Position numbers and translations under genes: made by a program. The notes under the pieces were generated by a model. It ran no database searches. It was given only the letters and a program-made list of their open reading frames with translations, and was not told where the DNA came from. Below are positions 379-45,377 of a stretch of 64,000 nucleotides of DNA, one piece after another. The stretch's first letter is position 1. Each line of letters begins with the position of its first letter. Source of the DNA: Archaeoglobus veneficus SNP6 (GTDB taxonomy: Archaea > Halobacteriota > Archaeoglobi > Archaeoglobales > Archaeoglobaceae); contig NC_015320.1 of NCBI RefSeq assembly GCF_000194625.1, positions 1,162,612 to 1,226,611 of the forward strand, given 5' to 3'.

Positions 379-566
379 TTCTGTAGAAAAATTTATCAAC
401 CGGAATGGCGAAGATTTGAGTGTAGCAAATTCCGTGGGCTTTCATAATCGCCCCAATTCGGAAAAGAATTGATTAAAAAAATTTGAAACGTGAAAAAAGC
501 TATAAGACAGAATGTTGATGGATAAAAATGTAGTTAAAGTTTAATCAAATGTAAATATAAAAAGGG

Positions 567-2438
567 ATGAGTATGGAGTATACAGCCGAGCAGATTGAAG
601 TGCTTGGAGACATCGAGGCCGTCAGAAAGAGGCCCGGAATGTACATAGGCGGCATTGGACTTAGGGGACTCCATCATCTCCTCTGGGAGATAGTGGATAA
701 CTCCATAGATGAGGCTCTGGCAGGGCACTGTAAGAACATAACTGTAACCCTCCATAAAGACGGTTCTGCGAGCGTTGAAGATGATGGAAGGGGAATCCCA
801 ACGGAAGTTCACGAACTTGGAAGGCCAGCGGTGGAGATAGTGTTAACCAAGCTGCATGCTGGAGGAAAGTTCAACAAAAAAGCGTACAAGGTCGCCGGAG
901 GGCTTCACGGCGTCGGTCTTTCAGTCGTTAATGCCCTTTCTGAGTGGCTTGAAGTCTGGGTCAAGAGGAACGGCAAGATTTACTACCAGAAATACGAGAG
1001 AGGTGTTCCTGTCACACCCCTCCAGGTTATCGGAGAGACAAAAGAAACAGGAACAAAAATAAGGTTCAAGCCCGACGAGGAAATTTTCGAAACGACAGAG
1101 TTCAGATGGGACATCGTTGCACAACGATTGAAGGAACTAGCCTACCTGAACAAGGGTATCAGACTGAAGCTCATTGACGAAAGGAGTGGAAAGAGCAAAG
1201 AGTTCTACTCAGAGGACGGTATAAAGGGCTTCGTTGCCCAGCTCAACAAAAACAAGCCCGTAATTCACGACGTAATCCACTTTTCCGAAGAGAAGAACGG
1301 AATAATGGTGGAAGTAGCCATCCAGTTCACCGACACCGAGATAGAGAACGTCCTCTTCTTTGCAAACAACATAAACACCATAGAGGGTGGAACGCACGCA
1401 GTGGGCTTCAGAGCAGGGCTGACGAGGGCAATAAACGAGTTTGGCAAGAAATACGTGAAGAAGTTCAAACCCCTCACCGGAGCAGACATAAGGGAAGGCC
1501 TGACGGCTGTTGTTTCGGTAAAGGTGCCGGAACCACAGTTTGAGGGACAGACGAAAACCAAGCTGACTAACAGCGAGGTAAAAACTGTTGTAGAGTCGAT
1601 AGTCTATTCTGAAGTGTTGAAGTGGCTCGAGGAACATCCAAATGAAGCCAACAGAATCATAGAGAAGTGTATACTCGCAATGAAAGCGAGAGAAGCGGCG
1701 AGAAAGGCAAGAGAGATTGTGAGGAGAAAAGGTGAGATCTCCATAACCCTGCCAGGAAAGCTCGCAGACTGCTCCTCAAAGAACCCGGAGGAAAGGGAAC
1801 TGTTCATAGTGGAGGGTGAATCTGCAGGCGGTTCTGCGAAACAGGCGAGAGACAGGCGCTTTCAGGCCATACTACCTATAAGAGGTAAGATCATAAACGT
1901 TGAAAAGGCAGGAATGGCCAAAGCACTGCGCAACGAGGAGATCAAGGCGATAGCCGCTGCAATTGGGGCAGGAATAGGCAAGGACTTCGACATAACAAAG
2001 GCGAGATACCGCAGAGTCATAATTATGACAGATGCAGATGTCGATGGCGCGCACATCCGAACGCTGCTCCTCACGTTCTTCTACCGCTACATGAAACCAC
2101 TTATAGAGAGTGGCTACCTTTACATAGCTCAGCCACCACTATACAGGGTTAAGAAGGGGAAGAAAGTTTACTACGTTTACTCGGACAGAGAGCTCGAGGA
2201 TTTGCTTGAGAGGATAGGCAACGCAGAGGTACAACGCTACAAGGGTCTGGGAGAGATGAACCCAGAGCAGCTATGGGAGACGACAATGAACCCCCATAAC
2301 CGCTATCTGATTCAGGTCACGCTGGAGGACGCAGCAAGGGCAGAGGAGCTTTTTTCAGTCCTGATGGGTGAGGATGTCGAAGCGAGGAAGAGATTCATAA
2401 TGGAACATTCTAAGGAAGTTAGAAACCTCGACGTATAA
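567..2438 (+). CDS. gyrB: DNA gyrase subunit B
   Basis: ATPase subunit of type IIA topoisomerase, which with GyrA introduces negative supercoils. The 623 residues show the GHKL ATPase site (Asn45 in [15 protein letters not shown] at 72-78, GGLHGVG at 111-117), the transducer, and the TOPRIM metal site (EGESAGG at 416-422, DADVDG at 489-494), ending with the KGLGEM tail motif. The length fits GyrB proteins lacking the large insert of the E. coli protein. The start is ATG 567; a second ATG follows two codons later and there is no clear ribosome site, so the transcript is probably leaderless or nearly so. gyrA lies about 8 kb downstream on the same strand, so the pair is not an operon here. Gyrase is a bacterial acquisition known in Archaeoglobales. 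Confidence 0.97.
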
Positions 2439-2443
2439 TTACC

Positions 2444-2449
2444 TTTTTT
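2444..2449 (+). terminator. oligo-T terminator candidate after gyrB
   Basis: A run of six T lies within ten bases after the gyrB stop codon, before the convergent thermosome remnant. Archaeal termination often occurs at such T runs; no hairpin is evident. Confidence 0.35.
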
Positions 2450-2600
2450 CTTAATTAGATCTAAACGGACATACTTTTCACACAGTCTTTCCTATTATGC
2501 TGAAAGGAATGTTATTACCATCCAACTACACAATACAACGTTTACGCTCAGAATTAGAAAATAAAATTTTAGATGTTCATACCTCCCACATTTGTTCCTT

Positions 2601-3231
2601 TCATACCTTCTCTTTCTCAAGTCCCTTCGCAGCGATGACGTCGTCGATTCTCAGAATCATCACCGCAACTTCCGTAGCAGACTCAATTGCCTGGCTCTTG
2701 ACACGGAGTGGCTCGAGGACACCTCTCTCCTTCATGTCAACGACCTTGCCCGTTTCAACGTCAACGCCAGTGTACTTCTCGCCCCTCTCGTGGGCAGCCT
2801 TGAGTTCTACGAGCACATCAATCGGGTCGATTCCCGCATTCTCGGCGAGGGTCTTGGGTATTATCTCGAGCGCTGCAGCGAATGCCTCGGCAGCGAGCTG
2901 TTCTCTTGAGAAGCTCACCAGCAAGAACCACAGCCGTTGTGGTTCCATCGCCGACCTCGTTGTCCTGAGTTTTCGCAATTTCAACCACAACTTTAGCCCC
3001 AGGGTGTTCAACATCAATTTCTTTAAGGATAGCAACACCGTCATTTGTAATCACGACGTCCCCTAAGCCATCCACTAACATCTTGTCCATTCCTCTCGGG
3101 CCAAGAGTGCTCCTCACAGCTTCGGCAATAACGCGAGCGGCCATTATGTTAAGCCTCTGCGCGTCTCTTCCAACAGTCCTCTGGGTTCCCTCCTTCAAAA
3201 TTAGTACAGGCTGCCCATGCAGCGTTGCCAT
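2601..3231 (-). pseudogene. thermosome subunit with large internal deletion and frame change
   Basis: The first 110 codons (3231 to about 2902) encode the N-terminal equatorial part of a group II chaperonin, with [20 protein letters not shown] and the nucleotide motif [15 protein letters not shown]. Downstream of about 2908, one frame over (+1), about 101 codons encode the C-terminal equatorial part, from [10 protein letters not shown] through [11 protein letters not shown] and [10 protein letters not shown] to the normal charged tail. Thermosome subunits are usually about 545 residues, so roughly 330 residues, the whole intermediate and apical domains, are gone. The two halves meet at an AAGAGA stretch and are out of frame, so translation would give a 137-residue product ending in unrelated sequence. 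A good ribosome site (GGAGGTGATG) still precedes the ATG. It lies 21 nt after asnB on the same strand. An assembly error is possible. Confidence 0.85.
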
Positions 3232-3252
3232 TTACATCACCTCCACAAAATA

Positions 3253-4926
3253 TCAAATATTACATAACACCTCTTTTAGATGCTCAAGTTCAGACTTACA
3301 AACGAGTTTTTGTTCCAGAGCAATCGTGTCGAGGTACATCTGCACGTAATCAGGTACCGTCCAGAGCTTCTTCCCTCCATACTTGTATCCGTATCTTATT
3401 GAACTGCCGAGTTTTTCTCTGACACTTTCGTCCAGATTATAACCTGCTATCCTCGCAACTTCTTCATTAAACCCATTTATCCGCGCAATCTCAAGAATTG
3501 CCTCATGCACCCCTGACCCGTGCTGAGCAGCTTCCTTTGGTCTCTCAGCCAGATCTGCAGATACTCCGATCCGTTTAGCAAGTTCTCTGTGAATAAACTT
3601 TCCAAGTCTGTCTTTAGGAGACGTTATTTTCAGTTTAGCATCAATCTGCATGGCCACTTTTATGACCTGAGGATCAAGATACGGAACCCGGAGTTCTATA
3701 CTGTGCGCCATCGTTATCTTGTCCTCCCGCTCCAAGGTTTCGCGATAGAGATTCAGTATGTCACTTACCATGTACTGCTCCAACACTCGATAACCATCTC
3801 TTTCTACAATCACACCGTACCACGGATAGCCACCAAAAAGCTCATCTGCCCCTTGTCCTGTAAGCATAACCTTAAGACAGTCTTCATGTGCCATCTCTAC
3901 AGCAGCATAGACCGGAATAGCTACTTCCACCTGGCCAAATAGGCGGTCTTCGATAGTCTCCATGACCTCTGGAATGTACGCTTCCACATCCTCAAGACTG
4001 AGCTCCTTAACTCTGATTTCCAGACCAATTTCCGAGGCGGCAAGTTTGGCGTACTTGATATCTTCAGAACCTTTCAGACCTGCGGTGTAACACGTCACAT
4101 CTGTAAACTCACTGGCAATTTTCGCAATGAGTACGCTGTCAATTCCTCCTGAGAATATTACACCAACTTTTTCAAGCCCAGACACCCTTTTTCTAACAGC
4201 TTCGATAAGAGCGTCGTGATACTTCTCTATAGCCTCGTGGAAATCATAAATTGAAGTTTTCAGATTAACTGGTAGCTCAAGAACCTTTCTGAGGGTAACA
4301 CCATCTCTAGATAGTTTTGCCAGATGTCCCGGTGGTAGCCGTATTTCATTGCATATTCCTATTTCCCAGAGCGCTTTTCGTTCAGATGCAAAAGCAACAT
4401 ATCTTTCATTTACACCAATGTATAGCTGTTTTACTCCTATTCTATCCCTGGCAATTACTACCTCTCTTCCATCGCTTACTGCAATGGCATACACACCATC
4501 CAGATATCCGAGAGCTTTGGCAACCGATGAAGCCAAGTCTCCGTTGTAGAATTGTTCGATGAGGTGGACAATGGTTTCACTATCAGTCTCGGTGATGAAC
4601 CTGTGGTCAGCCTCCAGTCTTTTTCTAAGCTCCCTGTAATTGTAAATCTCACCATTGTGGAGAAGAATAAGCTTTCGCTGGCAATCCTCAAGCGGCTGCT
4701 GACCAAACATCCCCCCAACAATGGCCAGTCTTACGTGACCCATTGCCATGCTGCCTTCGATACCTTTGATATCTATATCCTCAAGTGAGAAGCTTCTCTG
4801 AATTGTTTTTCCAACTACTACACCACAACCATCCGGTCCACGATGGTGCATCCTGCCAAGCATTCTAACGATCTGATCCGAAACGCTGCTTCCATCTCTG
4901 CTGATGATACCAGCAATACCACACAT
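3253..4926 (-). CDS. asnB: asparagine synthase (glutamine-hydrolysing)
   Basis: Converts aspartate, ATP and glutamine to asparagine. The 557-residue protein begins MCGIAGI, so after removal of Met the Cys becomes the N-terminal nucleophile of the class II glutaminase domain, which continues with [10 protein letters not shown] and [10 protein letters not shown]. The synthetase domain carries the PP-loop SGGIDS at 259-264 and the usual [10 protein letters not shown] and RVPYLDP segments. The C-terminus (KEAAQHGSG) is typical of archaeal AsnB. The gene is followed 21 nt later by the broken thermosome gene. It sits in the AT-rich accessory stretch between gyrB and gyrA; an asparagine synthase fold can also serve amidation of other substrates, so the exact acceptor is inferred. 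Confidence 0.9.
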
Positions 4927-5156
4927 CTCGAAATCACCACCATTTAAACAAAGCTATAAATTATACCGAAATGCCCCAGATATTTCTTCTAACTAAATAT
5001 ATTTTTACTGAATTATTTCTTCTAACCATCTCCGTTCGGCTAAATAGCACTTTTACACCCCCATCTGCACTCAGAAAGTCATCTTATAAAAATTTTATGG
5101 GCAAAATATTTATAGGATGGCTCTAAAACGGAAAATTGAATCGTGGAGGTTTAAAA

Positions 5157-6317
5157 ATGCTTATTGAAGCTCCAAGACATGCAGAGATATTTGGATCAGT
5201 AAAAATCTACGACGTTCAAAAGGTGTTAAAACTAGAATCAAAAGAGATTGAAGGCCCCCTATTACGCAGCATTGGCAGAGAACAAATCGAAGAGGTTTTA
5301 GAGAAGCTTTCAATCGTAATCCCCATAAAAAATGAAAAGATAAAGTTACTTGACGGTGTTTTAAAAGCAATACCAGATGCCTGCCAGATAATAGTCGTCT
5401 CCAACAGCTCAAGAACAGGACATGATGTGTTTAGAATGGAAGCAGATGTAATAACACACTTTCATAGCCTCACAAAACACCCCATCTGTATTATACATCA
5501 AAAAGACCCGGGGCTGGCTTTAGCCTTTAAAGAAGTGGGATATACAAGCATTCTTGATGAGAGCGGATTTGTAAGAGATGGTAAAGCAGAAGGTATGATT
5601 ACCGGCACACTACTCGCAAAATGCTTGGAAAAAGACTTTGTTGGATTTATTGATGCTGATAACTACATTCCCGGTGCTGTCAACGAGTATGTAAAAGATT
5701 TTGCTGCAGGATTCTGCATGTCCGAGTCACCGTATTCGATGATTAGGCTGCATTGGAAACACAAACCAAAAATCGTAAAGAGCAGACTCTATTTCAGAAA
5801 ATGGGGAAGAGTTTCTGAAATCACCAACAAATATCTTAACTTTCTTCTATCTAACTGCACAGGGTTCGAAACTGACATAATAAAGACTGGAAACGCTGGA
5901 GAGCATGCGATGACGATGGAACTTGCCAGTATAATGTGCTATTCAACAGGGTATTCTATAGAACCGTATCAACTTGTTTACCTGCTGGAAGAATTCGGAA
6001 AGGGAGAAACAGAATGCAGAGATGTCGTAAACTCTGGAGTTGAGATATTACAAATAGAGATGCTGAACCCCCACTTGCACGAGGAAAAAGGTGAAAAACA
6101 TATTAAAGACATGTTACTGGGATTACTCTCGACCATCTACCATAGCAAACTCTGCAACGAGTATCTTAAATCCAAGATTCTTGAAGAACTGCGAACGAAC
6201 AATGCGATTGGACAGGAACAAGCACCAAAAAAGAATTTGATTATACCACCAATTAAGGATATTGATATTAAAAAATTCATAAAAGTACTGGAAGGGGGTT
6301 ACATATACCCCCATTAG
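5157..6317 (+). CDS. mpgS: mannosyl-3-phosphoglycerate synthase
   Basis: Transfers mannose from GDP-mannose to 3-phosphoglycerate, the first step to the compatible solute mannosylglycerate. The protein (386 residues) matches GT55 enzymes: VIPIKNE near 53-60, the long conserved block around IIVVSNSSR, the DAD metal site at 166-168 (FIDADNYIPG), and GNAGEHAMTMELA near the C-terminus. I chose ATG 5157 because GGAGGT lies seven bases before it; an upstream TTG at 5136 precedes this ribosome site. The phosphatase that completes the pathway is not in the window, but the GDP-mannose-forming manC is 1.7 kb downstream. The 3' end overlaps the convergent hydrolase gene by four bases. Confidence 0.9.
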   Translation: MLIEAPRHAEIFGSVKIYDVQKVLKLESKEIEGPLLRSIGREQIEEVLEKLSIVIPIKNEKIKLLDGVLKAIPDACQIIVVSNSSRTGHDVFRMEADVITHFHSLTKHPICIIHQKDPGLALAFKEVGYTSILDESGFVRDGKAEGMITGTLLAKCLEKDFVGFIDADNYIPGAVNEYVKDFAAGFCMSESPYSMIRLHWKHKPKIVKSRLYFRKWGRVSEITNKYLNFLLSNCTGFETDIIKTGNAGEHAMTMELASIMCYSTGYSIEPYQLVYLLEEFGKGETECRDVVNSGVEILQIEMLNPHLHEEKGEKHIKDMLLGLLSTIYHSKLCNEYLKSKILEELRTNNAIGQEQAPKKNLIIPPIKDIDIKKFIKVLEGGYIYPH

Positions 6318-6970
6318 CATTCTACTTCAAGCAAAAATTTATTACCGCGAATTCTTTTAAGACTCTTGAAAAAGTCTCCAGATTTCATTACAAGACCAAA
6401 ATTCTCTTTAACTTCCAGAAGCGTAGTCCTGTAAAGCTCATCACTCAAAGATGCTGTTGCATCAGATAGAAGAATTACGTCGTATCCTCTATTGAACGCA
6501 TCCCTCAGTGAGGATTCCACACATATGGAGGTATCGACTCCTGTAAAGACTAAAGTGTCAGCTTTTAAAGCCTTCAGCCACATCTCAAATTCCGTATCCT
6601 GAAAAATAGAATCCCTCCGTTTCTCAACAACAAGATCGTCAGGAGCTGGCTTTAGCATATCTATAATCTCTGCATCCCAAGTACCTCTGACGGCTATAGG
6701 CAGCCTTTTAATCCTTTCCAGCCTTTTTGGTGGTAGAATTTGATGTACTTTGTCGAGCATATCAATTCCAGATCTTTCTCGAATTGCTTTAGAGAAAAAT
6801 ACGGGGATTTTTAGGGATTTTGCTTCCTCATACGTACTTCTAAGAGTGGGTAGTATTTTCCGATATTTCGAGATGTCATAGCCCAATTTGTCAAACGATC
6901 CATCTGGAGACAAAAAACAATTCTGCATGTCAATGATTACCAGTGCTGGTTTAATCTTATAGCCTTTCAT
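6314..6970 (-). CDS. isochorismatase-like cysteine hydrolase
   Basis: A 218-residue member of the cysteine hydrolase superfamily (isochorismatase, nicotinamidase and related amidases). The catalytic triad is visible: Asp14 in VIIDMQN, Lys117 in VEKRRDS, and Cys150 in GVDTSICVES. The substrate cannot be told from sequence; nicotinamidases usually carry a metal-binding D-x-H motif that I do not see clearly here. The gene lies 21 nt downstream of the transglutaminase-like gene on the same strand, so the two are probably co-transcribed and may act on related amides. Confidence 0.8.
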   Translation of the reverse strand: MKGYKIKPALVIIDMQNCFLSPDGSFDKLGYDISKYRKILPTLRSTYEEAKSLKIPVFFSKAIRERSGIDMLDKVHQILPPKRLERIKRLPIAVRGTWDAEIIDMLKPAPDDLVVEKRRDSIFQDTEFEMWLKALKADTLVFTGVDTSICVESSLRDAFNRGYDVILLSDATASLSDELYRTTLLEVKENFGLVMKSGDFFKSLKRIRGNKFLLEVEC

Positions 6971-36703: not shown

Positions 36704-39700
36704 TTAGGATCTACTCCTTCCCACCAAAATTGCCAGAATTGTCATTGCTGCTACAGCCGCAAGAAGGTCAAAGCCAGGTGTTCGTTTCTCAGGCGTGATC
36801 ATTGTAGATGTTGCTGGCTGGGTTTCCTTGGGAATTTCTCCCATAGATGAAACCGTAGGCAGTGGCGATGGGGTGGTTTCAGGTGTAACTACCGGTGGCT
36901 TTGCAACAATTGCAAAGAGGCTGAATGAGCTAAGCCTGGATTCGTAGTAGACGTAGTCATTGTCTTCTCCCGTTATCTCTGAGGGGATTTCAATCCATTT
37001 GTCGCCCGTGTACTTCATAAGCGAAACCTGCTCCTTTGCGTAACCTTTCTCCTCCAGCCATGACTTTGCAACTCTGAACTTTATCCTGCCCTCAGCGTCA
37101 ATCTTCATTGCGGTGCCATACCTCGCAATGCCTATCTCGAATATGTTGTAAGTGTGGTATCGCGGTTCAGGAACTTCATCTGGCAGAGATCTGACTTTGG
37201 AGATTGCGAAGGTTACCGTTGCTGTTTCCTTTGGCTTTATAACCACTTCAACAACGTCTGCTGTTTCCACTATCTTCGATGATGGTTTGAATGACACTTC
37301 CTCCTGAGCAGGGACGTATCTCGCCTCCACGTGTTTAATTTCCGGTGGGGCTTCGAATGGTGGAGGGATGAAAGTTGCTCCGCCACCTCCACCCCCGGCT
37401 CCTCCAGCTCCTCTTCTTGGCGAAGTAACTGTTATTTGAACCGTTGCGTTATCCGTTGCCCCGTCGCTGTCTGTAACCGTAAGCTCAACCGTGTACGTGC
37501 CCGCTGATGAGTAGCTGTGTTTTACAACTACACCCGATGCTGTAGAACCATCGCCGAAGTCCCATGCGTAGCTGACTATGCTTCCATCCGAATCATAGCT
37601 TGAGGATGCGTTGAATGTTATTGCTTCTCCAGTCCTTGCAGACGTCTTGCTTGCCGTGAATGATGCAACTGGTGGGTTGTTTCTGACTTCAACTATTACA
37701 CTGCTTGAATTTTCGTTGCCCGCTGTATCGTTTGCTTTTATTGTATAATTCCAGTAACCGAGGGATGTGGTGTTGATGGAGATGTTGAACGCTGTGCCGT
37801 TTTGATAACTTCCCGAGTCAACGAATGTACCGTTCCTGTAAACCGCATACTTGTTTGGATGCGCATCTGCAATGACAACAGTCAGGTTTGCTTTGGTGTT
37901 TCTGTAAACTGATGGCGGATAGCTGATTACTGTTATTTGTGGAGGAGTTTTGTCTACCGTCACAACTCTCGTTCCTGTTGAGTTCCAGTGATTCAGGGAG
38001 TCATTCGCATACACCCTGTACGTGTGCGTGCCTTCTGATGTAATTGTATAGTTGAAATCAACAGCCTTGCCACTTCCAAGCTTCGACATTGTGTAATTTA
38101 CTCCGTTTACGTTTATCAAGGCGGTTGAAACGTTTGAGATTGCATCCGTAACGTTTACGGCGATCGTGACGGAAGTGTTTACGATGGAGTTGTTTGTAGG
38201 AGTAGGTGAGATGAATGTTATTGCTGGTGGTGTGATGTCCACAGCGAATGTCCAGGTTTGGCTTGCATTGGAATTGCCAGCGTCATCTGTTACTGCTACA
38301 TTCCATGTGTGAGTGCCTTCTGTCAATCCTGTAACGGTTACTGTTGTTAAAGTAGTGGTTGCATTCCCGGTTGTGTTGGCTACTCCGTCTATGTACAGTG
38401 TATAATCGATTAAAGTGTCTATGTTGTCGTACGCCGTAAAGTTGAAGGTTACTGTTGTGCTGTCTATGTTTGAGTTGTTTACTGGCTGGCTTAGGATTAT
38501 TACTGGAGGTGTGGTATCGAGAGTTATATGCCTTAATGGAGTTTGATTTAAATTACCCGCAGTATCGTTTACGTAAACTCTGTAGCTATAGCCACCTTCA
38601 TTCAATCCCGTTAAATTAATCCAGCAGTAACCCGTTTTGTTGTCCGAGCTTGTGTTTACAAAGGTCATTGTGTAGTTTGTTGAATTGAATTCTAAAATAC
38701 AGGTATCTACTGCACTCACACCATCGCTAACGCTCACATTTACATAAACCCAGTTTCTGCTTACATTTGCATGGTCAGGCTCTGTTGGGCTGGTGTAATA
38801 AATTACCGGAGGGGTTGTGTCAATAGCGAACGTTACCGTCTCTGTTGAGTTGGTATATCCGAGGGTGTCGTTGGCGTAGATTCTTACATAATGAGGACCA
38901 TCGCTCAGAGTTGGAGTTGTTCCAACGTAATAGCCGTTGGTGTAGGTTAACGTGATGTTTGTAGTTCCATCGATCTGGGCTATGACCGTGCTAACTCCAG
39001 AAGGATCGGTTGCTGAGACGTTTATCGTCACGGTTGATGTTGCATAGGTCGTGTTTTGCGGAGAGATTATAACAACGCTTGGCGGGAAGTGATCGTACGT
39101 TAACGGCAGGTAATCTATGTTGCTTGCATCCAATACATAGGGTGAATCGCATATTCCATCACCATCCGCATCGCTACTGCATGTTTGGCTGAACCCGGTT
39201 CCATCTGGCTTAGCCCAGTAGTTTCCGCCGAGGTAATTACCTCCAATTATGTTGCTGCCGGGTGTTTTCGTGGTGTTCCAAGAATTCGTGGTTCCGGTGA
39301 TATAGAAATTGTTGGTGTTGTTAAAGATGTTGTTGTAAATGAGGTTGTTGTTCGATGAGGAGAGGTACAGTCCATATGTATTTCTACCAGCCCCGTTGTT
39401 ACTGATTATATTTCCGGAAATCTCGGCGTTTGATATACTCTGCAAATAAATTCCACCATTGAAGTTGTTCTCAACGGTGTTGTTCTTGAATGTAAGAGTT
39501 GGATTGCTGGAGCTGTAGCCTTTGATGTACATTCCGTAGTTGTTGTTGTTTTCAGCAGTGTTGTTCTCAAGTCTGACTGTTCCTCTGATGTTGTAGAGGT
39601 AAACTCCAGCACCAAAGTTTGATGAGAAGTTGGAGTTGAGGATTGTGACGTTCTGGCTGTTTGTAGTGCTTCCCATGTCTATGAAAACTCCATGATTGGT

Positions 39701-42700
39701 GGTGCTGCCAGCAGATCCAATGTTGGAAACAGTTACGTTGTCAAGAACGATGTTCTTTATAGGATTGTAATCATCCAAATGAATTCCATTGGTGCTTGCT
39801 GAGCTTATGGTTGTGTCGTTTATGAACAGGCCATCAATCTGCTTTCCGCTATCATAAATGCCATAAGAACCTCCAGAGATTGTGGAGTTGTCTATTGTGA
39901 CGTTTGTTATGCTTCCAGCAATGTTGATGCCGTTTGATGCTGGGTTGGTTATTGTTAGATGGCTGAATTTTGAGTTGGAGACAGAGGAGAGGTAGATTGC
40001 ATCGCTTGAGGGATTCGATATTGTGAGGTTGTAAAGGTAGAGGTTGCTAACACTCATCGCATAAATTCCATAGCTGTAACTCCTAACAGTGTTGTCAAAG
40101 GAGAGGTCTCTGACTGTTATGCTTCCTCCAGATAGACTCCTGAGATCTATTTGAGTTCCACCGTTGTCTCCAACGCTGTTATCTGATGGGGAGAAGACGA
40201 TACTTCCGGAGACTGTTAAAGCTTCCAGATAAACTCCATTCGCATTGTTCTCAACGGTGTTGTTCTTGAATGTAAGAGTTGGATTGCTGGAGCTGTAGCC
40301 TTTGATGTACATTCCGTAGTTGTTGTTGTTTTCAGCAGTGTTGTTCTCAAGTCTGACTGTTCCTCTGATGTTGTAGAGGTAAACTCCAGCACCAAAGTTT
40401 GATGAGAAGTTGGAGTTGAGGATTGTGACGTTCTGGCTGTTTGTAGTGCTTCCCATGTCTATGAAAACTCCATGATTGGTGGTGCTGCCAGCAGATCCAA
40501 TGTTGGAAACAGTTACGTTGTCAAGAACGATGTTCTTTATAGGATTGTAATCATCCAAATGAATTCCATTGGTGCTTGCTGAGCTTATGGTTGTGTCGTT
40601 TATGAACAGGCCATCAATCTGCTTTCCGCTATCATAAATGCCATAAGAACCTCCAGAGATTGTGGAGTTGTCTATTGTGACGTTTGTTATGCTTCCAGCA
40701 ATGTTGATGCCGTTTGATGCTGGGTTGGTTATTGTTAGATGGCTGAATTTTGAGTTGGAGACAGAGGAGAGGTAGATTGCATCGCTTGAGGGATTCGATA
40801 TTGTGAGGTTGTAAAGGTAGAGGTTGCTAACACTCATCGCATAAATTCCATAGCTGTAACTCCTAACAGTGTTGTCAAAGGAGAGGTCTCTGACTGTTAT
40901 GCTTCCTCCAGATAGACTCCTGAGATCTATTTGAGTTCCACCGTTGTCTCCAACGCTGTTATCTGATGGGGAGATGACGATACTTCCGGAGACTGTTAAA
41001 GCTTCCAGATAAACTCCATTCGCATTGTTCTCAACGGTGTTGTTCTTGAATGTAAGAGTTGGATTGCTGGAGCTGTAGCCTTTGATGTACATTCCGTAGT
41101 TGTTGTTGTTTTCAGCAGTGTTGTTCTCAAGTCTGACTGTTCCTCTGATGTTGTAGAGGTAAACTCCAGCACCAAAGTTTGATGAGAAGTTGGAGTTGAG
41201 GATTGTGACGTTCTGGCTGTTTGTAGTGCTTCCCATGTCTATGAAAACTCCATGATTGGTGGTGCTGCCAGCAGATCCAATGTTGGAAACAGTTACGTTG
41301 TCAAGAACGATGTTCTTTATAGGATTGTAATCATCCAAATGAATTCCATTGGTGCTTGCTGAGCTTATGGTTGTGTCGTTTATGAACAGGCCATCAATCT
41401 GCTTTCCGCTATCATAAATGCCATAAGAACCTCCAGAGATTGTGGAGTTGTCTATTGTGACGTTTGTTATGCTTCCAGCAATGTTGATGCCGTTTGATGC
41501 TGGGTTGGTTATTGTTAGATGGCTGAATTTTGAGTTGGAGACAGAGGAGAGGTAGATTGCATCGCTTGAGGGATTCGATATTGTGAGGTTGTAAAGGTAG
41601 AGGTTGCTAACACTCATCGCATAAATTCCATAGCTGTAACTCCTAACAGTGTTGTCAAAGGAGAGGTCTCTGACTGTTATGCTTCCTCCAGATAGACTCC
41701 TGAGATCTATTTGAGTTCCACCGTTGTCTCCAACGCTGTTATCTGATGGGGAGAAGACGATACTTCCGGAGACTGTTAAAGCTTCCAGATAAACTCCATT
41801 CGCATTGTTCTCAACGGTGTTGTTCTTGAATGTAAGAGTTGGATTGCTGGAGCTGTAGCCTTTGATGTACATTCCGTAGTTGTTGTTGTTTTCAGCAGTG
41901 TTGTTCTCAAGTCTGACTGTTCCTCTGATGTTGTAGAGGTAAACTCCAGCACCAAAGTTTGATGAGAAGTTGGAGTTGAGGATTGTGACGTCCTGGCTGT
42001 TTGTAGTGCTTCCCATGTCTATGAAAACTCCATGATTGGTGGTGCTGCCAGCAGATCCAATGTTGGAAACAGTTACGTTGTCAAGAACGATGTTCTTTAT
42101 AGGATTGTAATCATCCAAATGAATTCCATTGGTGCTTGCTGAGCTTATGGTTGTGTCGTTTATGAACAGGCCATCAATCTGCTTTCCGCTATCATAAATG
42201 CCATAAGAACCTCCAGAGATTGTGGAGTTGTCTATTGTGACGTTTGTTATGCTTCCAGCAATGTTGATGCCGTTTGATGCTGGGTTGGTTATTGTTAGAT
42301 GGCTGAATTTTGAGTTGGAGACAGAGGAGAGGTAGATTGCATCGCTTGAGGGATTCGATATTGTGAGGTTGTAAAGGTAGAGGTTGCTAACACTCATCGC
42401 ATAAATTCCATAGCTGTAACTCCTAACAGTGTTGTCAAAGGAGAGGTCTCTGACTGTTATGCTTCCTCCAGATAGACTCCTGAGATCTATTTGAGTTCCA
42501 CCGTTGTCTCCAACGCTGTTATCTGATGGGGAGAAGACGATACTTCCGGAGACTGTTAAAGCTTCCAGATAAACTCCATTCGCATTGTTCTCAACGGTGT
42601 TGTTCTTGAATGTAAGAGTTGGATTGCTGGAGCTGTAGCCTTTGATGTACATTCCGTAGTTGTTGTTGTTTTCAGCAGTGTTGTTCTCAAGTCTGACTGT

Positions 42701-44272
42701 TCCTCTGATGTTGTAGAGGTAAACTCCAGCACCAAAGTTTGATGAGAAGTTGGAGTTGAGGATTGTGACGTTCTGGCTGTTTGTAGTGCTTCCCATGTCT
42801 ATGAAAACTCCATGATTGGTGGTGCTGCCAGCAGATCCAATGTTGGAAACAGTTACGTTGTCAAGAACGATGTTCTTTATAGGATTGTAATCATCCAAAT
42901 GAATTCCATTGGTGCTTGCTGAGCTTATGGTTGTGTCGTTTATGAACAGGCCATCAATCTGCTTTCCGCTATCATAAATGCCATAAGAACCTCCAGAGAT
43001 TGTGGAGTTGTCTATTGTGACGTTTGTTATGCTTCCAGCAATGTTGATGCCGTTTGATGCTGGGTTGGTTATTGTTAGATGGCTGAATTTTGAGTTGGAG
43101 ACAGAGGAGAGGTAGATTGCATCGCTTGAGGGATTCGATATTGTGAGGTTGTAAAGGTAGAGGTTGCTAACACTCATCGCATAAATTCCATAGCTGTAAC
43201 TCCTAACAGTGTTGTCAAAGGAGAGGTCTCTGACTGTTATGCTTCCTCCAGATAGACTCCTGAGATCTATTTGAGTTCCACCGTTGTCTCCAACGCTGTT
43301 ATCTGATGGGGAGAAGACGATACTTCCGGAGACTGTTAAAGCTTCCAGATAAACTCCATTCGCATTGTTCTCAACGGTGTTGTTCTTGAATGTAAGAGTT
43401 GGATTGCTGGAGCTGTAGCCTTTGATGTACATTCCGTAGTTGTTGTTGTTTTCAGCAGTGTTGTTCTCAAGTCTGACTGTTCCTCTGATGTTGTAGAGGT
43501 AAACTCCAGCACCAAAGTTTGATGAGAAGTTGGAGTTGAGGATTGTGACGTTCTGGCTGTTTGTAGTGCTTCCCATGTCTATGAAAACTCCATGATTGGT
43601 GGTGCTGCCAGCAGATCCAATGTTGGAAACAGTTACGTTGTCAAGAACGATGTTCTTTATAGGATTGTAATCATCCAAATGAATTCCATTGGTGCTTGCT
43701 GAGCTTATGGTTGTGTCGTTTATGAACAGGCCATCAATCTGCTTTCCGCTATCATAAATGCCATAAGAACCTCCAGAGATTGTGGAGTTGTCTATTGTGA
43801 CGTTTGTTATGCTTCCAGCAATGTTGATGCCGTTTGATGCTGGGTTGGTTATTGTTAGATGGCTGAATTTTGAGTTGGAGACAGAGGAGAGAGAGATAGC
43901 ATTTGAAAATCCGATGATGCTACCATTCTTCACCACTATGCCACTCTTATCATTTATCGTAATACCATTTATCGTAATCCCACTGCCAGCCAAATCAGTT
44001 CCATTTAGCGTTGACCCATTCAAATCCAGCGTTATGCTGTTGTTCACAAATGTAAGTTGCTCTGCATAGTCCGTAATTTCAACAATCATAATCAGATCGC
44101 CAGCAGAAGCATTATTCAGAGCAGATTGGATAGGTGTGGTAGAATTGTTAAAGGTTCCGCCGGCATACCACCATCCACTTGTGTTCACGTAAATCGTTGC
44201 CGCTTCGGCGCTTATAGAACTTCCAACAAGGGCCAAACTAAGAGTAATTATTACAAAAATCCAGAGTCTCAT
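36704..44272 (-). CDS. giant secreted surface protein: beta-helix repeats, Ig-like and PKD domains, PGF-CTERM
   Basis: A 2522-residue exported protein. Residues 1-23 are a signal peptide (MRLWIFVIITLSLALVGSS). Then comes a long parallel beta-helix region of the NosD/PbH1 type, rich in Asn, Ser, Thr and N-x-S/T sites, containing 5.7 copies of a 260-residue repeat (DNA 39465-43891). A further beta-helix segment and NGAGRNTYGLYLSSSNNNLIYNN-like rungs follow, then several Ig-like domains starting with DTTPPVI-type linkers, and one PKD domain (SYAWDFGDGS). A PGF-pre-PGF-like domain (SWLEEKGYAKEQVSLMKYTGDKW) precedes a Pro/Thr-rich stalk. The C-terminus is a PGF-CTERM sorting signal (TPGFDLLAAVAAMTILAILVG, then RSRS), the target of archaeosortase A, which swaps it for a lipid anchor. 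Ligand unknown; probably heavily N-glycosylated. Confidence 0.88.
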   Translation of the reverse strand: MRLWIFVIITLSLALVGSSISAEAATIYVNTSGWWYAGGTFNNSTTPIQSALNNASAGDLIMIVEITDYAEQLTFVNNSITLDLNGSTLNGTDLAGSGITINGITINDKSGIVVKNGSIIGFSNAISLSSVSNSKFSHLTITNPASNGINIAGSITNVTIDNSTISGGSYGIYDSGKQIDGLFINDTTISSASTNGIHLDDYNPIKNIVLDNVTVSNIGSAGSTTNHGVFIDMGSTTNSQNVTILNSNFSSNFGAGVYLYNIRGTVRLENNTAENNNNYGMYIKGYSSSNPTLTFKNNTVENNANGVYLEALTVSGSIVFSPSDNSVGDNGGTQIDLRSLSGGSITVRDLSFDNTVRSYSYGIYAMSVSNLYLYNLTISNPSSDAIYLSSVSNSKFSHLTITNPASNGINIAGSITNVTIDNSTISGGSYGIYDSGKQIDGLFINDTTISSASTNGIHLDDYNPIKNIVLDNVTVSNIGSAGSTTNHGVFIDMGSTTNSQNVTILNSNFSSNFGAGVYLYNIRGTVRLENNTAENNNNYGMYIKGYSSSNPTLTFKNNTVENNANGVYLEALTVSGSIVFSPSDNSVGDNGGTQIDLRSLSGGSITVRDLSFDNTVRSYSYGIYAMSVSNLYLYNLTISNPSSDAIYLSSVSNSKFSHLTITNPASNGINIAGSITNVTIDNSTISGGSYGIYDSGKQIDGLFINDTTISSASTNGIHLDDYNPIKNIVLDNVTVSNIGSAGSTTNHGVFIDMGSTTNSQDVTILNSNFSSNFGAGVYLYNIRGTVRLENNTAENNNNYGMYIKGYSSSNPTLTFKNNTVENNANGVYLEALTVSGSIVFSPSDNSVGDNGGTQIDLRSLSGGSITVRDLSFDNTVRSYSYGIYAMSVSNLYLYNLTISNPSSDAIYLSSVSNSKFSHLTITNPASNGINIAGSITNVTIDNSTISGGSYGIYDSGKQIDGLFINDTTISSASTNGIHLDDYNPIKNIVLDNVTVSNIGSAGSTTNHGVFIDMGSTTNSQNVTILNSNFSSNFGAGVYLYNIRGTVRLENNTAENNNNYGMYIKGYSSSNPTLTFKNNTVENNANGVYLEALTVSGSIVISPSDNSVGDNGGTQIDLRSLSGGSITVRDLSFDNTVRSYSYGIYAMSVSNLYLYNLTISNPSSDAIYLSSVSNSKFSHLTITNPASNGINIAGSITNVTIDNSTISGGSYGIYDSGKQIDGLFINDTTISSASTNGIHLDDYNPIKNIVLDNVTVSNIGSAGSTTNHGVFIDMGSTTNSQNVTILNSNFSSNFGAGVYLYNIRGTVRLENNTAENNNNYGMYIKGYSSSNPTLTFKNNTVENNANGVYLEALTVSGSIVFSPSDNSVGDNGGTQIDLRSLSGGSITVRDLSFDNTVRSYSYGIYAMSVSNLYLYNLTISNPSSDAIYLSSVSNSKFSHLTITNPASNGINIAGSITNVTIDNSTISGGSYGIYDSGKQIDGLFINDTTISSASTNGIHLDDYNPIKNIVLDNVTVSNIGSAGSTTNHGVFIDMGSTTNSQNVTILNSNFSSNFGAGVYLYNIRGTVRLENNTAENNNNYGMYIKGYSSSNPTLTFKNNTVENNFNGGIYLQSISNAEISGNIISNNGAGRNTYGLYLSSSNNNLIYNNIFNNTNNFYITGTTNSWNTTKTPGSNIIGGNYLGGNYWAKPDGTGFSQTCSSDADGDGICDSPYVLDASNIDYLPLTYDHFPPSVVIISPQNTTYATSTVTINVSATDPSGVSTVIAQIDGTTNITLTYTNGYYVGTTPTLSDGPHYVRIYANDTLGYTNSTETVTFAIDTTPPVIYYTSPTEPDHANVSRNWVYVNVSVSDGVSAVDTCILEFNSTNYTMTFVNTSSDNKTGYCWINLTGLNEGGYSYRVYVNDTAGNLNQTPLRHITLDTTPPVIILSQPVNNSNIDSTTVTFNFTAYDNIDTLIDYTLYIDGVANTTGNATTTLTTVTVTGLTEGTHTWNVAVTDDAGNSNASQTWTFAVDITPPAITFISPTPTNNSIVNTSVTIAVNVTDAISNVSTALINVNGVNYTMSKLGSGKAVDFNYTITSEGTHTYRVYANDSLNHWNSTGTRVVTVDKTPPQITVISYPPSVYRNTKANLTVVIADAHPNKYAVYRNGTFVDSGSYQNGTAFNISINTTSLGYWNYTIKANDTAGNENSSSVIVEVRNNPPVASFTASKTSARTGEAITFNASSSYDSDGSIVSYAWDFGDGSTASGVVVKHSYSSAGTYTVELTVTDSDGATDNATVQITVTSPRRGAGGAGGGGGGATFIPPPFEAPPEIKHVEARYVPAQEEVSFKPSSKIVETADVVEVVIKPKETATVTFAISKVRSLPDEVPEPRYHTYNIFEIGIARYGTAMKIDAEGRIKFRVAKSWLEEKGYAKEQVSLMKYTGDKWIEIPSEITGEDNDYVYYESRLSSFSLFAIVAKPPVVTPETTPSPLPTVSSMGEIPKETQPATSTMITPEKRTPGFDLLAAVAAMTILAILVGRSRS
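39465..43891 (-). repeat. 780-bp tandem repeat, about 5.7 copies
   Basis: The unit is 780 bp, exactly 260 codons, and the block recurs with the same period (for example lines starting 40201, 40981, 41761, 42541, 43321). Shared sequence begins at about 39465 and ends at about 43891. By eye only two bases differ among the copies: A to T near 40975 (Phe to Ile) and T to C near 41992 (Asn to Asp). The array lies wholly inside the surface-protein gene and stays in frame. Confidence 0.95.
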
Positions 44273-45129
44273 TTCTCTTCACCTTTTCCTTCTTTTTTCT
44301 TCTCTTTTCTTATCTCCTTTTCCCCCACTTCTTTCTTTTCTCCACTCTCCTTTTCCTTCTCAGGAGCGTCAAACTTCCCCTCAGCTTTTAAACCCTCAGA
44401 GGTGCAAATCTTAATTTCATAACTTCCAGCCTCCCAGTCAAAATCGAACTCTATATGCCTGACACTGCCAGAAGGAATCTCCTGCCTCAAATCGAAATGC
44501 TTATTGCCGATATAAACGGCATCAACAACCACATCCATAAATCCCCTGTTCCTGACGCTCACAACCACCTTCTTATCATCCCTGAACTCAACATTCTCTA
44601 TTTCCAAACCAGCCTGCTGTGCTTGCTGTTGCTGAGCAGTTCTTGAGCCAAAGTAGAAGCCCATGATCGAGGATATGGCTCCAAGGTATGCGCCTACAAC
44701 TATGTTCCTCGCTATGTCGAAAATTATCGATACCGCAAGCAAAGCATGGATGCCAACAACGAATGCTCCGGCCATTGCCCTCCTCATCTCACCCTTGCTG
44801 AGACTTCTGTCCGCTCTGTAACCCATCCTCAGGATGATGTAAAATACCACAGTCGCCGGTGCTAAGATCAGAAGGAGCACACACAGCCAGTTCCAGTTTT
44901 CCAGCAAAACTTTTTGAGCCACATTTACGGTGGAAACATTTTCAGTTAAGCTAACACTTCCAGAAGCATTTTTCAGTGCATCGCTGAGCGGTGTTTTGCT
45001 CTCATTGAGACCATCAGTGCTGTTATTCATTCCGGCTTTAGCTCCAGCAACAGTACAGAGTAAGATTGAAACGACTAATGCAGCAGCGAGCAAACTCCAG
45101 CATCCAGCCCCTCTATGAATACGAGCCAT
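44269..45129 (-). CDS. membrane protein coupled to the surface-protein gene
   Basis: A 286-residue protein. The N-terminus is a signal or anchor helix (about 10-28), followed by a short N-x-S/T-rich outer segment (MNNSTDGLNESKTPLSDALKNASG), three hydrophobic helices (about 76-96, 112-136, 142-160), a Gln-rich linker, a beta-rich domain (EIENVEFRDDKKVVVSVRNRG), and a strongly charged Lys/Glu tail. ATG 45129 is chosen for its GGTGGTATC ribosome site. The stop overlaps the start of the giant surface gene by four bases, so they are translationally coupled. I know no family; a membrane partner or anchor for the surface protein is inferred. Confidence 0.7.
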   Translation of the reverse strand: MARIHRGAGCWSLLAAALVVSILLCTVAGAKAGMNNSTDGLNESKTPLSDALKNASGSVSLTENVSTVNVAQKVLLENWNWLCVLLLILAPATVVFYIILRMGYRADRSLSKGEMRRAMAGAFVVGIHALLAVSIIFDIARNIVVGAYLGAISSIMGFYFGSRTAQQQQAQQAGLEIENVEFRDDKKVVVSVRNRGFMDVVVDAVYIGNKHFDLRQEIPSGSVRHIEFDFDWEAGSYEIKICTSEGLKAEGKFDAPEKEKESGEKKEVGEKEIRKEKKKEGKGEEK

Positions 45130-45377
45130 GATACCACCAAAAAGCGAAAGCCAAGCCAAAGACAGAAGAGCCTTTGACTCGACTCTCGCTTTCCGGTTGA
45201 ATGATTGGCTGCGAGATTAATTTTAAAATTTTCTATTTTGATCTGAATAATCATTAACAATATTATAATTATGTGTCAAACTGTCACGCTATCGCAAAAT
45301 GTTCTGGTCTGTAAAATGGCCTCAGACATGAAACTGGGCTGAAACTGTTTTGACGAATTATGATCGTCAATCAGCAA
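45130..45377. other. AT-rich divergent intergenic region
   Basis: Lies between the surface operon (minus) and aspartokinase (plus). It holds the dyad at 45350-45370; apart from that I see no ORF or RNA fold. Confidence 0.5.

Follow-up and report, generated by a model that had tools for sequence, protein, structure and literature searches.

The window, a stretch of 64,000 nucleotides from Archaeoglobus veneficus SNP6 (positions 1,162,612-1,226,611 of a genome assembled as a single contig of 1,901,943 bp), carries one giant open reading frame on its minus strand, preceded by the gene of a membrane protein. The features of the locus, all on the minus strand, are as follows.

44269..45159: 296-aa membrane protein upstream, overlapping the start of the giant ORF by 4 bp
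36704..44272: giant ORF P0001, 2522 aa, predicted secreted beta-helix/Ig/PKD/PGF-pre-PGF protein
44201..44272: putative signal peptide, hydrophobic N-terminus, residues 1-24 (hydropathy about 2.2 in the first 15-residue windows)
43892..44200: unique N-terminal segment with the motif YVNTSGWW..FNNSTTPIQSALNNAS, common to homologues, and the first helix coils
43112..43891: array copy 1, residues 128-387
42332..43111: array copy 2, exactly equal to copy 1
41552..42331: array copy 3, with a single change, N to D at 41992
40772..41551: array copy 4, with a single change, F to I at 40975
39992..40771: array copy 5, exactly equal to copy 1
39465..39991: array copy 6, terminal and partial, 527 bp, identical
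39098..39463: unique, NosD-like sequence that closes the beta-helix on its C-terminal side (NosD best stretch 1511-1691; limits approximate)
37703..39082: stalk region with Ig-like domains (Big_7/Big_13; limits approximate)
37427..37681: PKD domain, residues 2198-2282 (PF18911, E 1.6e-25)
36902..37339: PGF-pre-PGF domain, residues 2312-2457 (TIGR04213, 84.3 bits, cut-off 28)
36707..36781: C-terminal TPGF, hydrophobic stretch and RSRS tail, resembling a PGF-CTERM sorting signal and scoring under the curated models

The giant ORF matches the Beta_helix family PF13229 with 419.5 bits (threshold 25.9) and the NosD family PF05048 with 228.4 bits (threshold 23.6), and contains 99 N-x-S/T sequons in total. 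It thus shares its fold family, far over the curated cut-offs, with the NosD/Beta_helix surface proteins of archaea, but these families describe neither a 260-residue super-repeat nor homogenisation at the DNA level, and most NosD/Beta_helix ORFs of Archaeoglobaceae are without long near-identical tracts. A location at the cell surface is predicted, with good support from the hydrophobic start, the PGF-pre-PGF domain, the PGF-like tail and an archaeosortase A gene in the same genome (TIGR04125, 224.5 bits). In these respects the protein resembles the PGF-CTERM substrates of archaeosortase A, such as the S-layer glycoprotein of Haloferax volcanii, with their P-G-F, hydrophobic stretch and basic tail; unlike them, its tail stays below the PGF_CTERM models TIGR04126 and PF18204. 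The sequence-only reading of this DNA had called the protein archaeosortase-anchored. Its surface part is well supported, while the anchoring is likely but is something that we infer, because no curated PGF_CTERM model was reached.

The 296-aa membrane protein has no Pfam match, and its gene is probably co-transcribed with the giant ORF. A protein of genome G039 (L041:7345-8109) is 59% identical to it and has the 'GWW...ALNNAS' motif with which it resembles the giant proteins at their N-terminus, which suggests, on the strength of this homologue, a functionally linked pair. The 1476-aa PGF protein of G018, from the same genus, was considered as an orthologue of the repeat protein and set aside: both ends are shared, the array is absent, and it is not a true orthologue. 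Our literature search, confined to open-access papers, found none on the giant gene.

The array consists of 5.676 in-frame copies of a 780-bp unit over 4427 bp (window 39465-43891, gene position 382-4808), and the autocorrelation of the region has its peaks at 780 bp exactly and at multiples of this period. Autocorrelation and copy alignment bear out in both count and coordinates what had first been noticed by eye, 5.7 copies of a 260-codon unit with two base differences. Tandem Repeats Finder did not report the array, since its longest period is 500 bp. Among the copies only two columns are variable, both singletons and both non-synonymous, namely, in letters of the coding strand, A to G at 41992 (Asn to Asp) and T to A at 40975 (Phe to Ile). 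The conservation of synonymous sites, claimed earlier as well, is complete, with no difference at about 998 such sites. With just two singleton differences, the array copies all descend from a very recent common ancestor. Copies match exactly over tracts of up to 1322 nt, far above chance expectation, and the edges of the array are sharp because adjacent-copy identity falls to background (0.2-0.35) directly beyond both ends. Past the DNA identity of copy 6, a diverged protein homology to the unit runs on to unit position 192. The units of A. veneficus are 95-100% identical in amino acids; each has 9 N-x-S/T sequons, and the array contains neither cysteine nor tryptophan.

One unit was searched against 393 genomes of the phylum. 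Full-length tandem homologues, co-linear at about 35-39% identity, came from three genomes of other families, G143 and G204 (family f20, genus g44, 60% GC) and G173 (family f4, genus g24); two Archaeoglobaceae genomes, G044 and G030, gave partial homologues, and a profile search added just weak and mostly generic helices. The distribution is patchy, with the array in 2 of the 12 genomes of genus g44 and in 1 of the 8 of genus g24. When compared with the units of other genera, that of A. veneficus is about 30-39% identical in amino acids, and the alignment is co-linear over the whole length with invariant positions present. The tandem units are in the same phase in A. veneficus, G143, G204, G173 and G044, and the terminal partial unit ends at position 192 in A. 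veneficus and 194 in G143. Array proteins with an intact start have the 'GWW...PIQ.AL.NA' motif in common, and the PGF-pre-PGF domain occurs in the window protein, G030, G143 and G204. Every unit length among the arrays (780, 774/771, 696, 741 and 633 bp) is divisible by three. The unit of G044 has 211 codons, and a gap of 45-49 residues, or about two coils, sets it apart from the 260-codon unit; its homology is barely above that of unrelated beta-helix segments (222 vs a best of 193). G030 retains the C-terminal half of an orthologue of the giant protein. Its contig (G030:C240, L037) also carries an aspartokinase gene like the array's neighbour in the window, in another arrangement. Outside the phylum set, the whole giant protein retrieved nothing relevant from the genome-contig collection, and neither did the scan of viral contigs, phages and plasmids; the units of G143 and G204 retrieved just generic beta-helices from Verrucomicrobia/Anaerolineales at 26-32% identity. 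Judged from its co-linear homologues in several genera, the unit is an ancient super-repeat, and its conserved nature as a block of about ten coils is new here.

Copies inside one genome mostly resemble each other far more than they resemble those of other genera, with amino-acid identities of 47-84% in G143, 43-96% in G204 and 38-88% in G173. Neighbouring units of G143 are 57-84% identical, with dS of 0.25-0.65 and dN/dS of 0.35-0.5; among homologous units in general dN/dS is mostly 0.35-0.75. These values bear on the explanation that purifying selection on protein and codons holds the copies of A. veneficus identical, which we find scarcely credible. The dN/dS range does mean that the fold is constrained, but the lack of any synonymous change refutes selection as the sole cause, and the neighbours in G143 have diverged while retaining the fold family, so selection on the protein does not demand identity. 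The cause in the window array is therefore recent DNA copying, and the preference of the sequence-only reading for recent expansion or conversion over protein selection alone is upheld. The array of A. veneficus is, as its unit sequences indicate, an ancient repeat recently re-homogenised. A donor copy for gene conversion was sought elsewhere in the A. veneficus genome and none was found, since all 13 PF13229 matches of the genome sit inside the giant ORF.

G143 and G204 are sister species with arrays at the same locus (same neighbouring ORFs). In the unit tree, inner units cluster by genome, and the terminal partial units G143_6 and G204_6 cluster together with a support of 0.997. Inner units grouped by genome and terminal units by position form the pattern of unequal exchange that hits the inside and spares the edge; by this reading of the tree, the units undergo unequal recombination and concerted evolution. 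The copy numbers are 5 full units and a partial one in G143, and about 4 full and a partial one in G204, where a short additional duplication inside the first unit makes the count approximate. These orthologues also differ in their Fn3 stalk domains, of which G143 (L114) has 3 and G204 (L115) has 6. It had been proposed that copy number may vary between cells, and that an equal number in orthologues of diverged species would speak against this. The result is divided: G143 does equal A. veneficus, with 5 full units and one partial, but the G143 copies went through a history of their own and the sister G204 differs. The equal count could also be a sign of constrained length.

Alternatively, a single ancestral unit may have been multiplied once in the A. 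veneficus lineage with no recurring turnover. Such a one-off amplification would account for the two singletons being the only differences, and other surface ORFs of the family do have different in-frame near-identical duplications, for example of 819 bp in G053 and 468 bp in G014. However, distant genera already have the unit in tandem, in the same phase and with a last, incomplete copy that stops at the same position, so the array is older than the amplification. Furthermore, terminal units retain their ancestry while inner units are replaced. We regard a one-off origin as unlikely, and favour recurrent turnover.

The strength of homogenisation was also compared across arrays and other surface ORFs. 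The longest exact inter-copy tract is 1322 nt in the window array, 454 nt in G173, 234 nt in G204, 207 nt in G044 (where it runs off the contig end) and 74 nt in G143. Exact tracts of 207-1322 nt hence occur in four arrays, and all shifts are multiples of three. An exact tract longer than 100 nt was found in just one of 14 further large surface ORF regions (L139-L152), that of G133. In the family, 70 regions were compared, almost every one of them with a beta-helix ORF, and near-identical direct repeats occur in only 5. As long exact tracts are rare in other surface ORFs, strong homogenisation marks this array family, with A. veneficus as the extreme. The G133 case (L145, ORF 1172-6688, plus strand) is a PGF-pre-PGF protein of 1839 aa with many exact tracts at multiples of 252 bp; its 84-residue array is a homogenised repeat of another kind. 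In G053 (L045), the 819-bp in-frame duplication lies in a NosD-type ORF (3906-6635, minus strand) and is identical over 714 nt, and near-identical paralogous segments are also present in the adjoining ORFs. A beta-helix ORF running to the contig end in G378:C51 (L138, 3699-6131, minus strand) contains a tract of 248 nt that recurs without mismatch 510 bp away and is probably a further homogenised array.

Units of 780 bp that are identical over as much as 1322 nt exceed short-read length, so the true copy number could differ from the assembled one by collapse or false expansion. The doubt about the assembled number raised by the sequence-only reading is reasonable, as the 5-contig assembly of G173 breaks inside the homologous array, leaving one part at the end of C2 and another at the start of C1. 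This is a direct case of a homologous array that an assembly did not resolve, and it is informative, since only about 0.01 breaks would be expected there. The contigs of G044 and G030 also stop inside the helix; we discarded these breaks as a sign of arrays because fragmentation into 200-570 contigs predicts, by our own arithmetic, about one break per gene of that size. For A. veneficus, on the other hand, the genome is a single contig, the array edges are sharp, the two singletons are located in different copies, and the single-contig genome G143 has a comparable unit number. An artefact in the copy number is therefore, in our estimate, quite improbable.

A sequence search of the unit against solved structures gave no match. 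The single-sequence AlphaFold model of residues 24-660 (pLDDT 73, pTM 0.78, first 100 residues poor) is nearly all strand, the short strands forming a recurrent pattern of coils, unbroken across the unit junction; that of the C-terminal half (pLDDT 46) was too poor for use. The best solved structures from Foldseek are nearly all right-handed parallel beta-helices, though as weak matches (E > 1e-3). Counted by hand, the 260-residue unit has about ten coils of about 26 residues. Single-coil parallel beta-helix repeats (TIGR03804) were considered as the source of the 260-residue period and do not explain it. The standard rise of a beta-helix coil is 0.48 nm, and at this rise the modelled rod would measure about 4.8 nm per unit and about 27 nm for the whole array. 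Only about 100 residues of the giant protein are distal to the array. The nearest solved beta-helices are, again by weak matches, lyases, epimerases and tailspikes, which would fit an enzyme or sugar-binding surface (carbohydrate-active, NosD/CASH-like) in which further repeats would add binding sites and not determine length. The giant ORF, however, has no match to a carbohydrate-enzyme family and no catalytic signature was found in it. We consider this function possible though doubtful; a binding surface and a variable-length rod are not mutually exclusive.

The explanation that we hold to be fairly probable is a beta-helix rod with an ancient super-repeat, turned over by recombination and freshly homogenised in A. 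veneficus. The gene product would be a secreted surface protein, tethered to the membrane, with an outer part formed by a single, continuous right-handed parallel beta-helix to which each copy adds about ten coils. Homologous recombination between units, presumably by unequal crossover and gene conversion, would gain, lose and overwrite copies and so may keep them alike inside a genome while genera diverge. Distant archaea have the block in common and have multiplied it anew, each independently of the others, so that the length of the rod appears to be rewritten by recombination. Since the unit comprises whole codons and apparently whole coils, such exchanges preserve frame and fold and alter rod length alone. 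The array of A. veneficus would then be the freshest state seen, after nearly complete recent homogenisation, and the rod may serve as a stalk or as an adhesin or glycan-interacting surface fibre. More tentatively, with the odds somewhat against it, these proteins could form an undescribed class of variable-length archaeal surface rods, with an ancient super-repeat of about 250 residues, patchy in Archaeoglobi and other families, whose copy number is repeatedly reset by recombination and whose rod lengths differ between cells or strains.

The closest known system is that of the Periscope Proteins (PNAS 2021, PMC8201768; review PMC9704523), bacterial surface proteins found by repeats of more than 50 residues at >=80% identity together with strain-level length variation. 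Their very high repeat DNA identity is ascribed to recombination, and short reads fail to resolve the repeat number (PMC8201768, PMC9704523). Both papers deal with bacteria only, and the word archaea is absent from them. The A. veneficus protein is alike in being a long surface protein, as predicted here from sequence, with long tandem repeats of very high DNA identity; set beside the repeat criterion of PMC8201768, its 260-residue units are at 99-100%. Repeat number also differs between orthologues, here by about one unit between G143 and G204. Unlike the mostly globular beads of Periscope Proteins, each A. veneficus repeat makes up about ten coils of a single, continuous predicted beta-helix. 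Periscope repeats are folded stalk units with a functional domain at the far end, where the giant protein has its roughly 100 residues distal to the array. With one genome per species here, we describe the array as probably working like a Periscope Protein and do not file it as a member. Recombination-driven length variation of surface proteins would thereby extend from bacteria to archaea, a hyperthermophile included, and in a solenoid fold an added repeat would lengthen one continuous rod and add no bead. For archaeal genomes it also means that the copy numbers of such genes need long reads. A hexagonal S-layer with a lattice constant of 19 nm is reported for A. veneficus (PMC5744192), and the cultured organism offers a natural system for measuring rod length, the rate of recombination at high temperature and surface properties.
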